A DNA stretch of 64,000 nucleotides from Bryobacterales bacterium (lineage in GTDB: Bacteria; Acidobacteriota; Terriglobia; Bryobacterales; UBA6623): positions 1-64,000 of the forward strand of contig JAPOOG010000071.1 in assembly GCA_026713545.1 (NCBI GenBank), in the 5' to 3' direction. Under the pieces are notes generated by a model, which saw only the letters and a list, made by a program, of their open reading frames with translations, did not search any database and was not told where the DNA came from. Made by a program: the position numbers and the translations under genes. Shown here one piece after another: positions 13,444 through 62,033 of the stretch. How positions within the stretch are numbered: the stretch's first letter is position 1; every line of letters starts with the position of its first letter.

Positions 13444-13622
13444 GCCTGCATTTCTCACCACGCGACGGGCGAAGCACGCGATACGACCGCCAGGACTTCG
13501 TTGCGCTTGCTTGCCGTGCTCAACGTACTGTTCAAGTACGCCTGCGCGCGCCAAGCGGCGCGCGCCTCGTCCTGACAGCCCTCTCACCCACTTCGCCCGC
13601 CACGTAGTGAGAAATGCAGGTT
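13443..13622 (+). mobile_element. 180-bp inverted-repeat element, copy 2
   Basis: The left end is AGCCTGCATTTCTCACCAC and the right end is GTAGTGAGAAATGCAGGTT. The core matches copy 1 almost throughout, including the GCGCGCCAAGCGG stretch. It abuts the -10 box of the RelBE-type operon on its left side. Confidence 0.88.
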
Positions 13623-17802: not shown

Positions 17803-18085
17803 GACCTGCATTTCTCACCACCCGACGGCCGGAGCACGCGAGAAAAGGCCGTGATTCGTGTGTCGTGTCTCGTGATTCGTAAAAACCATTGGCGCGGGTC
17901 TGTTTCGCTCCAGAAAGAAATGTCTGACGGCCGGTGAACCGTAAAGGCCGTGATTCGTGTGTCGCAACCCGAGGGTCGAAGGAGGAAATAAGGCCGCTAC
18001 GGCTGCGCGCGCCAAGCGGCTCGCGCCTCGTCGTGACGACCCTCTCACGCACTTCACCTCGCCACGTGGCGAGAAAAGCAGGCTA
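17803..18085 (+). mobile_element. Inverted-repeat element, expanded copy 3
   Basis: The left end (GACCTGCATTTCTCACCAC) and right end (GTGGCGAGAAAAGCAGGCT) match the 180-bp family, but the copy is about 283 bases. The extra DNA holds two period-7 tracts and the segment shared with 328-391. Its right end touches the 34-bp direct repeat at 18086. Confidence 0.8.
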
Positions 18086-49243: not shown

Positions 49244-49424
49244 AACCTGCATTGCTCACCACAAGACGGCCGGAGCACACGATACGACCGCCATGACTTC
49301 GTTGCGCTTGCTTGCCGTGCTCGATGTACTGTTCATGTACACCTGCGCGCGCCAAGCGGCTCGCGTCTCGTCCTGCCGGCCTTCTCACGCACTTCGCCTC
49401 GCCACGTGGTGAGAAAAGCAGGCT
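49244..49424 (+). mobile_element. 180-bp inverted-repeat element, copy 4
   Basis: The left end is AACCTGCATTGCTCACCAC and the right end is GTGGTGAGAAAAGCAGGCT. The core is nearly identical to copy 1. Its right end is followed at once by the AAGGAGG ribosome-binding site of the PhyH gene, so any transcript of that gene from upstream passes through the element. Confidence 0.87.
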
Positions 49425-51995: not shown

Positions 51996-52214
51996 ATGTC
52001 GCGCCTCCGGTTCTATTCGCGCGGAAGCCGAAATGACGCGAACGTCACGAAGATTCCCGCTGAAGGATGTAACTCCGGGGACAATGGCCACTTCGGCTGG
52101 CCGATGGCCATTATGATCGACGATACTCTGACGGTGAGCCACACACCGGACTTCCCCACCGGGCCGGCGGAGGTTCAAGCGCTCATCAATGTTGTCGGGC
52201 AGGGCGCGGCATGA
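51996..52214 (+). pseudogene. Remnant of a sialidase C-terminus
   Basis: The frame contains HFGWPMAIMIDD and later DFPTGPAEV. These align without gaps to HFGQPFANIIDR and GFPAGPEGV in the remnant at 55536-55742 (13 of 29 positions identical by eye over the stretch), and to the MGYPAGPSGVFR end of the intact sialidase-like gene at 55818. The N-terminal part is not homologous and the usual end (VTRTLETGKLRAF) is missing. Its TGA overlaps the ATG of the next gene (ATGA). Confidence 0.55.
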
Positions 52215-54361
52215 AGCTACTCGAACGAGGCGGTCTCACTTCCGTTCTCGGACTCTACCTTACCCTGGGGCTCTCAGCCCTTCCAGCTGGGGTGAGAACG
52301 ATGATCTGGACGGGCGCCGCGGGCACGGCCCGCTGGACGGACGCGGGTAACTGGACCGGCGATGTTGTGCCTGGAACCAAGGACATCGCACGATTCGAGT
52401 CACAAGCGGACGTCGTGCTGGAGGGCGCTTCTTCCGTCGGACGGCTGGAGGTGGAACTCGCCGACAAGGATGCCGTGGTTTCCCTCGACGGACCAGGCAA
52501 GCTGGTGCTCACGGGAGCCGATACCGTGATCGGCAAGCCGCTATCACTAGCCGTCAAGCGCGGAACGCTCGAGATCGGCCGGAAACTCGCGATCGATCTG
52601 GAGGGAACCCGCTTCAGCGCCCAAGCCGGAGGAACGCTTGTTCTGCGAAGCGAAAAGATCGTCGCCAAAGAGCCCGATCTGAAGGCCGCCGTTTCTCAAT
52701 CGGGAACACTGCGCTTGGGGATGCGGCGCTGGGACCCCCAAATGGACCTCGACCTTTCGACCGGGTCAACCTGGGGCCGGGGAGCCAAGGTCATCGACTT
52801 CTCCTTGCCCGCGAACGTACACCAAATCATTACCTTCGGAAAGTTCAAGGAGCATGACGGCGATCCCATCGTGATTCGCGGCTTCGAGCCGGGAGACGCG
52901 CTGTGCTTCTCCGAAGACCCCCGGCGATCGGCGGACCCCGGCAAGGAGCTTGTGCTTTCGGCGGTCGGGTTCGAGGGCTGGGGCGAACAGAGTGCGGCCG
53001 GGATCGAATCGACGGGAGCCCTTTGGTGTCTCAAGCCGAAGGGAACGAGTCTTCCGAAAACGGTCGTCGAGCTTTCATCTGCGCCCCTCGACAGTGGTAT
53101 TCCGCCGCGAGCGCATCTCAAGGACATGCAGGTCCAAACCCTGGTTGCCGCGTCCGAACGCTACCCGAGAAATATGGGCGCCGACATGGTCAAGCTGCAG
53201 GACGGGCGTTACTTCCTCGCGTTCTCGCAATGGTTGACCGGCACGACCGACCAGGACGACTCGCGCGTCATGGGAATGGTTTCGAGCGACCAGGGAGCGA
53301 CATGGGGCGCGCCGTTTCCCGTGGCCACCGCGGACGGTGAGTGCAAGAGTATTCGTCAGCCGAGCCTGTTGCGGCGGGGCGACGGTGAACTGCTTCTCTT
53401 TGTTCGTTGCCGAGAGGAACTCACGGAGGCCTGGGTCGCCCTGTTCCGATGCCGCGACGAAGAAAGAATCGACAAAGGCCCGGCGGCCTGGACGCGCCGG
53501 CGCCGTATTACGCCTCCGCCGCCTGGAAGGCATATCGCGCTGAACAATCGAGCGATCCGTTCAAGCGAGGGCAGGTTGCTCCTGCCACTCTCGACGCCGT
53601 GGCCGTGGGACCGTCCAGACGAAAGCGGCAAGGACATCCGATCGTGGTGCCTTTATTCCGACGACGACGGGGAGACCTGGCAACAGAGCCGGTCGATGCT
53701 GGCGGGGCCGGGGCGCGGGCTCATGGAGCCGTATGCCGTCGAGCTCAAGGACGGCCGGCTGCTCATGCTGATGCGCACGCAGACTCACCGCCAGTATCGC
53801 TCCATTTCGCGGGACGGCGGCGATAGCTGGTCGCCGGCGACGGAAGTCACGGCCCTCGTTTCCCCGGAATCCCCGGCGGCCGTCCGTCGGGATCCCGGCA
53901 CCGGCTGGCTGACCGTGGTGTGGAACTACAACAGCCGGGGCCAACACGGCGCCGATCGAACACCGCTGACGATTGCGTTTTCCGCCGATGAGGGAGAAAG
54001 CTGGTTCGGTTATCTCCACCTGGAAACCGATCGAACCAAGGCGTTTTCCTATCCGAGTTTGCGGTTCATCGACGGCAAGGTTTTCGTGACGTACTACGAA
54101 AGGCCGGTCGGTCCAACGGACCGCCGCATCTCGCTCAAGATGCGTTCCTTCAAAATTTCAACTCCAGGCTCAACAGCCCGTGGCAAAAGCCCTGCTGCAT
54201 TCAAGCGGCGATGCATCCCGGCTGAACTGCGTTGCTCCTCGGTCGAATATGTTCAATATGCTCCCTCGTCACGCCTTGTCAGCCGGGCGCCTCACCCCTC
54301 TCGGTGCTACGCGGGGTTTCACCACGGGCTGTTAACGAAGGGAGCCGGACCGCATGACTGA
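52211..54361 (+). CDS. Secreted sialidase-fold protein with N-terminal beta-strand domain
   Basis: The 716-residue protein has a signal peptide (about residues 1-27). Residues about 30-290 form a beta-helix-like, autotransporter-associated type domain (MIWTGAAGTARWTDAGNWTG). A six-bladed sialidase (exo-alpha-sialidase-like) propeller follows, with Asp-box motifs SSDQGATWG, YSDDDGETWQ, SRDGGDSW and SADEGESW. Homology ends near SLKMRSFKIS; the last 66 or so residues are translated from a 160-bp inverted-repeat element and look foreign (basic and cysteine-containing). The stop overlaps the start of the next sialidase gene by eight bases. True sialic-acid cleavage is not proven, as many of these act on other glycans. 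Confidence 0.82.
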   Translation: MKLLERGGLTSVLGLYLTLGLSALPAGVRTMIWTGAAGTARWTDAGNWTGDVVPGTKDIARFESQADVVLEGASSVGRLEVELADKDAVVSLDGPGKLVLTGADTVIGKPLSLAVKRGTLEIGRKLAIDLEGTRFSAQAGGTLVLRSEKIVAKEPDLKAAVSQSGTLRLGMRRWDPQMDLDLSTGSTWGRGAKVIDFSLPANVHQIITFGKFKEHDGDPIVIRGFEPGDALCFSEDPRRSADPGKELVLSAVGFEGWGEQSAAGIESTGALWCLKPKGTSLPKTVVELSSAPLDSGIPPRAHLKDMQVQTLVAASERYPRNMGADMVKLQDGRYFLAFSQWLTGTTDQDDSRVMGMVSSDQGATWGAPFPVATADGECKSIRQPSLLRRGDGELLLFVRCREELTEAWVALFRCRDEERIDKGPAAWTRRRRITPPPPGRHIALNNRAIRSSEGRLLLPLSTPWPWDRPDESGKDIRSWCLYSDDDGETWQQSRSMLAGPGRGLMEPYAVELKDGRLLMLMRTQTHRQYRSISRDGGDSWSPATEVTALVSPESPAAVRRDPGTGWLTVVWNYNSRGQHGADRTPLTIAFSADEGESWFGYLHLETDRTKAFSYPSLRFIDGKVFVTYYERPVGPTDRRISLKMRSFKISTPGSTARGKSPAAFKRRCIPAELRCSSVEYVQYAPSSRLVSRAPHPSRCYAGFHHGLLTKGAGPHD
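54171..54334. mobile_element. 160-bp inverted-repeat element in sialidase gene end
   Basis: The left end AACAGCCCGTGGCAAAAGCC (54172-54191) is the inverse of the right end GGTTTCACCACGGGCTGTT (54315-54333), with three differences. It encodes no transposase. The insertion supplies the last 60 or so codons and the stop region of the upstream sialidase-fold gene. Confidence 0.75.
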
Positions 54362-55535
54362 AGTACATCGCAGAAATTTTCTTTCGTTCTCCGGCCTAGC
54401 AGCAACGGCGCTGCCGGCGCGGCGGGCAGCCGCCGCTGCCAAAGCGGGTATCGGCGAGAAGTACTCGCTCATCCCCTGCCCATGGACCCCGGAGAACCCG
54501 CGGCACGACCATCAACTGATCTTTCCGCTGAGCGGCGATCGTCTGTTGCTCGTCTGGTGCGAATACTACGTGAAGAAACCGTCGCGGATCTTCCGATCGC
54601 CTTACTCGGCCGCCGGCAGCGGCGACGCCGCGCCCTGCCGGATCTCCGCGCGCGTCTCCAAGGACCGGGGGCGAACCTGGAGCGGGAAGGTCACGCTGCA
54701 GGACAACTTCGGGGTGGACAACGTGAAGCACCCGAACCTGCTGCGCCTGCCCTCGGGAGAGATCCTTTTCTCTTTCACGGTACGGGATATCGCCAACCGC
54801 GACCTGAAGATCCACCTCAAGCGGTCTCGGGACGAATGCGAGACGTGGACCGAGCCGGTGCAGATCTCGCCAACCGGAGGGGTGTACTTCACCAACGCCG
54901 ACCACAATCTGCTGCACAGTTCGGGACGGATCATCCTGCCGTGCCACTGGGGCGAGTTCTATGGGCGGGGGGATCATTACAACGCGTTTTGCCTCTACTC
55001 CGATGACGAGGGAGCGACATGGCAAACGAGCCGCAAGAGAGTCGATCTTCCCAAGCGCGGCGCCGAGGAGCCGGGCGTGGTCGAACTCAAGGACGGCTCG
55101 CTGTTGGCGATGATGCGGACCACTCTCGGGAAGATCTACCGCTCCACGTCCAAGGACCGGGGCGAGACGTGGCCGGACGGAGAAGCGACCGAGCTGCCTT
55201 CCCCATCGGCGGCCAATTGCATCAAGCGCATTCCCGAGACCGGCGATCTCGTGTTCCTTTGGAACAACGCCACGCCGGAAGCTCTCAGCGATCCCGGCGG
55301 CACGAGCTATCACTACCCGCGTAATCCGCTCACGGCGGCCATCTCCAAGGACGAGGGGAAGACCTGGACGAACCACAAGGATGTCGAGCGGCGCGAGGGT
55401 TACATCAGCGGCTACCCGTCCATCTCGTTCGTCGACAGCGAAGCGCTCGTGGCCTATTACCATTCTTCGCGATCGATGTCGCGCGACACCGATCTGAGGC
55501 TGAAGATTTTCGATGTGGACTGGTTCTACTCGTGA
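54354..55535 (+). CDS. Sialidase-fold hydrolase, Tat-exported
   Basis: The 393-residue protein starts with a Tat-like leader (MTEVHRRNFLSFSGLAATAL). The propeller has Asp boxes SKDRGRTWS, SRDECETW, YSDDEGATW, SKDRGETW and SKDEGKTW. FLWNNATPEALSDPGG near residue 300 is a family-specific stretch that also appears in the decayed copy at 63643-64000. The gene ends with LRLKIFDVDWFYS, the normal family end. After the TGA the same frame stays open for 68 more codons with homology to another sialidase end (see 55536). Substrate specificity is unknown. Confidence 0.88.
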   Translation: MTEVHRRNFLSFSGLAATALPARRAAAAAKAGIGEKYSLIPCPWTPENPRHDHQLIFPLSGDRLLLVWCEYYVKKPSRIFRSPYSAAGSGDAAPCRISARVSKDRGRTWSGKVTLQDNFGVDNVKHPNLLRLPSGEILFSFTVRDIANRDLKIHLKRSRDECETWTEPVQISPTGGVYFTNADHNLLHSSGRIILPCHWGEFYGRGDHYNAFCLYSDDEGATWQTSRKRVDLPKRGAEEPGVVELKDGSLLAMMRTTLGKIYRSTSKDRGETWPDGEATELPSPSAANCIKRIPETGDLVFLWNNATPEALSDPGGTSYHYPRNPLTAAISKDEGKTWTNHKDVERREGYISGYPSISFVDSEALVAYYHSSRSMSRDTDLRLKIFDVDWFYS

Positions 55536-61835: not shown

Positions 61836-62033
61836 TCTGACCTGCATGTCTCACCACCCGACGGTCGAAGCACGCGATACGACCGCCAGGACTTTGCTTT
61901 TCCTTCGCAACGCTTGCTTGCCGTGCTCGACGTACTGTTCAAGTACGCCTGCGCGCGACAAGCGGCTCGCGCCTCGTCTTGACGGCCCTCTCACGCACTT
62001 TGCCTCGCCGCGTGGTGAGAAATGCAGGTCAGA
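61836..62033 (+). mobile_element. 180-bp inverted-repeat element, copy 5
   Basis: The left end TCTGACCTGCATGTCTCACC and right end GTGAGAAATGCAGGTCAGA are matched inverses, four bases longer than in other copies. The core matches copies 1, 2 and 4, with a small AT-rich insertion (GCTTTTCCTTCGC). Confidence 0.87.

Follow-up and report, generated by a model that had tools for sequence, protein, structure and literature searches.

An inverted-repeat (MITE) element codes for most of the C-terminal tail of a sialidase-fold protein in a Bryobacterales bacterium

In this work we have analysed a stretch of 64,000 nucleotides from a Bryobacterales bacterium (assembly GCA_026713545.1, contig JAPOOG010000071.1), which we refer to as the window, and we show that its positions 54174-54331 are a copy from a MITE family, whose inverted-repeat elements are non-autonomous and lack a transposase. 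The copy lies within the 3' end of a gene that starts at 52211 (the 52211 gene) and, as far as can be judged from sequence, the tail of the protein encoded by this gene is derived from the element. The features discussed here are the following:

52211..54361, + strand: host gene, 716 aa, BNR/sialidase-fold beta-propeller, residues 655-707 element-coded (from the ORF, Pfam BNR_2 and a structure model)
54161..54361, + strand: C-terminal tail T651-D716 and stop, predicted disordered (from the ORF, the ends of homologues and the model)
54170..54173, + strand: left copy of the 4-bp target, TCAA, i.e. YTAR with one transition (from side-to-side agreement of positions 1 and 4 and the single copy at empty sites)
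54174..54331, + strand (as-defined forward orientation, host gene in the same direction): MITE, CAGCCCGTGG...CCACGGGCTG, 158 bp (ends set by comparison of dozens of copies with differing flanks)
54332..54335, + strand: right copy of the 4-bp target, TTAA (same evidence as for the left copy)
54354..55535, + strand: next gene, a sialidase-fold protein with a twin-arginine-like signal (from the ORF and a syntenic orthologue in the congener)

The product of the 52211 gene matches Pfam BNR_2 over residues 340-618 (E 1.5e-34), and an AlphaFold model made from 14 sequences is a beta-propeller with a mean pLDDT of 83, the last strand of which ends at 649-650. A first-pass annotation of this DNA had placed the end of homology near SLKMRSFKIS, and this agrees well with our results: KIS represents residues 648-650, homology stops at about 650, and the ends of 11 close homologues fall at query positions 646-656. 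In the model, pLDDT is below 50 from residue 653 on, bar one short stretch; the tail is thus predicted to be disordered and the extra residues, about 54 of them, are probably unstructured. The same annotation held that the protein has an element-derived tail, a reading against which distant orthologues sharing the tail would have spoken. None of the 13 aligned homologues has a tail of this kind and the DNA encoding it belongs to a repeat family with many copies, both of which uphold the claim. Searches for orthologues of the 52211 gene in the named genomes and in viral contigs gave distant relatives only, or none, and the element end found no match in viral contigs. The share of the element in the tail was, however, set too high at about 66 codons. 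Among the 66 residues which follow KIS, 53 (T655-L707) are coded by the element itself and the other 13 by flank and target: four (TPGS) by the upstream flank and left target copy, nine by the right target copy and downstream flank. S654 and L708 lie within the target copies, and T709-D716 is downstream flank.

The inverted arms of the window copy, at 54172-54192 and 54313-54333, are 86% complementary over 21 nt, and AACAGCCCGTGG is present at both ends as an exact match. Together with the dozens of copies elsewhere in the genome, which speak against a chance repeat, this bears out the original description of an inverted-repeat element with these termini, although the length of 160 bp given for it has to be corrected, the element proper being 158 bp. 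The two target duplications of this copy differ at one base (TCAA on the left, TTAA on the right). BLAST scored at least 40 copies in the source genome, and a sequence model found about 50 that are complete or nearly so, counts which rest on a limited number of scored candidates in a draft genome of 170 contigs. Dozens of copies are also present in the nearest congener, a second genus of the same bacterial family has a few diverged matches, and the remaining genomes of the 61 searched gave none. Aligned copies are identical in extent from CAG to CTG and the flanks outside them are unrelated; the termini of the family are CAGYCCGTGG and CCACGGRCTG. The tetranucleotides flanking the copies are mostly YTAR. 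Of 52 copies, 34 have the same base on both sides at position 1 and 37 at position 4 (21 and 22.5 expected, respectively), and in many copies the middle TA has decayed. For at least 10 copies the congener has an empty site with a single tetranucleotide and no element. These observations show that, on insertion, the family duplicates a 4-bp target of the YTAR type. Short (below the 600 bp or so usual for MITEs), with terminal inverted repeats and a target-site duplication, dispersed in many copies and having no transposase of its own, the family has these features in common with MITEs. We found no description of it, either as a match in Rfam or in the literature examined, which concerns other families.

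Most copies are 158 bp long, and a second class of about 179 bp carries an internal 21-bp duplication. At two insertion sites shared by the congeners (L164 in G001, the nearest congener, and L004 in G000, the source genome; L160 and L003) the two genomes differ in length class, one having the 158-bp and the other the 179-bp form, suggesting that copies change in place or undergo gene conversion with one another. We also observed elements of 260, 282 and about 350 bp (351) at L105-L113, L123 and L124, with the same ends, YTAR-type flanks and a different, GC-rich palindromic interior. Is there a parent transposon? The PF01609 (DDE_Tnp_1) loci in G000, G001 and G006 show other inverted ends or none, PF13546 (DDE_5) has no match in the source genome or in the element-carrying congener, and no DDE_Tnp_1 or DDE_5 locus checked is bounded by CAGYCCGTGG. 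Pairs of end motifs separated by more than 600 bp, considered as an autonomous parent, were not real elements in the cases examined. A structured or functional RNA was considered as well. The 171-nt strand of the window element has a predicted fold of -76 kcal/mol (z -5.0). We rejected this reading, as there is no Rfam match anywhere in the window and the fold gains no support from the covariation term; covariation is confined to the target-adjacent pair, which covaries because the target is palindromic.

The first-pass annotation also observed that the 52211 frame stops only within the start of the next gene, and indeed it terminates at TGA 54359-54361, in an 8-base overlap with a gene whose ATG is at 54354. 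It further attributed this stop and overlap to the element, which our analysis does not bear out. Element and duplication together (54174-54335, 158 and 4 bp) make up 162 bp, or exactly 54 codons, so that the insertion cannot shift the downstream frame; and since an insertion adds 162 bp, as the empty sites in the congener show, it would itself leave the TGA and the overlap unchanged. Both are probably older than the element. Immediately to the right of the element, at 54337-54344, is GAAGGGAG, which resembles a ribosome-binding site. For what had been seen as a foreign C-terminus, a better description is 54 codons inserted in frame just before the native end of the protein, unless a 1-nt slip occurred, and the earlier interpretation as a whole is partly supported.

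We consider the following history of the window copy to be reasonably likely. The element would have inserted in forward orientation within the final codons of the 52211 gene. The frame used by this gene has no stop across the whole element and, with 54 codons added, translation would continue straight through to the original TGA, giving a product that consists of the propeller and about 54 extra, probably unstructured residues ahead of its last few. The 8-bp overlap and the ribosome-binding site of the next gene would already have been in place. Copies may persist at gene ends because they do little harm there, the commonest gene-adjacent insertion point being the gene's own stop, which would be restored by the duplication. 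Against this history stand the one-base difference between its two target copies and the failure to find a parent transposase with these ends among the loci checked. The end of the gene before insertion is our inference, and here lies a further point against it: the implied native protein of 662 aa ends 6-16 residues beyond its close homologues (646-656), which fits better with another course of events. Could the element have inserted into the stop of the 52211 gene itself, a TTAA containing TAA, followed by a one-base slip near the end and decay of the left TAA to CAA? Tail, stop and overlap would then all be new. The native end would then fall near residue 653, midway within the range of the homologues, half of the gene-facing copies coincide exactly with stops, the left target reads TCAA against TTAA on the right, and truA offers a precedent in which a stop (TGA) and its absence (CGA) are found at a shared site. 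However, the TAA of the target is one base out of the present frame and an additional indel is needed, the likeliest place for it being a short AAAATTT run just upstream, whereas an in-frame insertion needs none. Because of these extra events we regard the stop-codon course as possible but on the whole doubtful, and insertion in frame as the simplest history.

Two further explanations dispense with such a history. The draft is in 170 contigs, several of which end inside element copies, and gene and element might have been fused by an assembly or base-calling artefact near the repeat. The window copy, however, is far from contig ends, target copies are recognizable on both sides of it and its neighbours are syntenic with the congener, all of which makes an artefact quite improbable. 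It is still harder to believe that the tail represents a true, conserved domain in which the inverted repeat is a coincidence. The frame is open across the entire element, as such a domain would require, but three of the six frames of the 158-bp consensus are open anyway (the longest has 52 codons), the same DNA is found at dozens of unrelated sites, no homologue has the tail and the model shows no fold there; we see almost no chance that this explanation is correct.

A direct orthologue for the empty site of the window copy is not available, because the nearest congener, which has both flanking genes, lacks the whole 52211 gene. To judge from the two loci, the gene was either gained in the source genome or lost in the congener. 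A second, unrelated MITE-like repeat with the ends CCTGCATTTCTCAC...GTGAGAAATGCAGG was noticed in the window at 13445-13620, 49246-49422 and 61841-62028, with further ends at 17805 and 19878. In the congener the 49246 copy is missing and another copy of this repeat occupies the position of the 52211 gene.

Two other loci show what the family can do to a protein end. At ribBA (L016) in the source genome, a copy replaces the native C-terminus which is retained in two congeners: there RibBA ends in PVLETATSVRFD and PVLEAEIPARYD, and in the source genome in PVLSVRGETPRSTESVEAPG, the last part of which is element-coded. The mechanism proposed in the first-pass annotation, a C-terminus supplied by the element, is thus shown to occur in this family by comparison of the ribBA genes. 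At truA a copy is present at the same site in both congeners; the gene of the source genome stops at the target with TGA, whereas that of G001, with CGA at this position, runs 25 residues further.

More questions arise from the position of the copies relative to stop codons. Out of 36 genes heading into a copy, with the coding frame picked by a simple codon-usage score, 18 have their end exactly at the target and 16 ahead of it; of the other two, one stops at the third base of the element and one, the window gene, reads through. The stop codon in these 18 genes is formed by the last three bases (TAR) of the target duplication, and every other offset is represented by at most one gene. Ten genes that stop at the target carry Pfam domains and are clearly genuine. 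They include the genes for a KDPG aldolase, an enzyme of the enolase superfamily, an MqnC-type radical SAM enzyme and a MoxR-type ATPase; nine of the ten belong to the 18, and the tenth, the MoxR-type gene, had a narrower scoring margin. Several long ORFs running into copies look like antisense shadows, and five of these have no Pfam match, while RibBA and TruA did match Pfam. At five empty sites in the congener the stop was already in the same position and the C-terminus the same or nearly so. As for the YTAR sites of the window, 3 of 62 are at stop codons and 37 are intergenic. A comparison of at least 18 of 58 copies at stops with 3 of 40 sites gives a binomial probability of about 1e-7; with small site counts from a single window, this can be relied on for the direction of the enrichment alone. 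Part of the enrichment may be due to harmless insertions surviving preferentially. Could the family be adapted to stop codons? Its YTAR target would hold the stop and the duplication would restore it; three common lengths, taken with the duplication (162, 183 and 264 bp), are multiples of three, and both orientations of the 158-bp consensus are open from a lost first stop to the second, so that loss of the stop would yield a ready-made C-terminal tail. We offer this only tentatively and think it rather unlikely to hold in full. In the literature searched, covered in part and mostly as titles and abstracts, there was no report of a MITE targeting stop codons.

Protein tails derived from MITEs are already known from Coxiella and Rickettsia, and the present family is a further instance. 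In Coxiella burnetii the multi-copy MITEs QMITE1 and QMITE2 overlap the 3' ends of functional genes and provide C-terminal residues and stops; EnhC of strain Dugway has 33 additional C-terminal residues from QMITE2, whereas in strain RSA 493 the stop lies just before QMITE2 (PMC5896051). The family described here is likewise a many-copy MITE which adds C-terminal residues, but it differs in its DNA, host and target: in half of its gene-facing copies the YTAR target itself serves as the stop codon, and the length of the element with its duplication is divisible by three. The palindromic elements of Rickettsia are selfish, palindromic, about 150 bp long and add in-frame peptides to proteins (PMC10969869). 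They often lie within coding genes, whereas our copies are mostly past the coding region or at the stop and few add residues; most of the 36 facing genes end at or before the target, unlike what is expected of elements residing largely inside coding sequences and in frame. The 4-bp YTAR-type duplication resembles that of IS5, which duplicates targets of the CTAG/CTAA type (PMC11677980), although the DDE_Tnp_1 and DDE_5 loci checked do not have the ends of this family.

Since the congeners differ copy by copy, comparing them shows directly what becomes of genes that receive an insertion at the 3' end. We have seen the stop kept, the C-terminus replaced (ribBA), a stop that one genome has and the other lacks at a shared site (truA) and, in the reading we favour for the 52211 sialidase, an in-frame insertion. 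If the adaptation to stop codons were true, it would represent a repeated route to new protein ends. The association with stop codons, should it hold genome-wide, would explain how the family has spread without destroying genes in a genome so densely packed with them, and it would allow the emergence of C-terminal tails to be measured.
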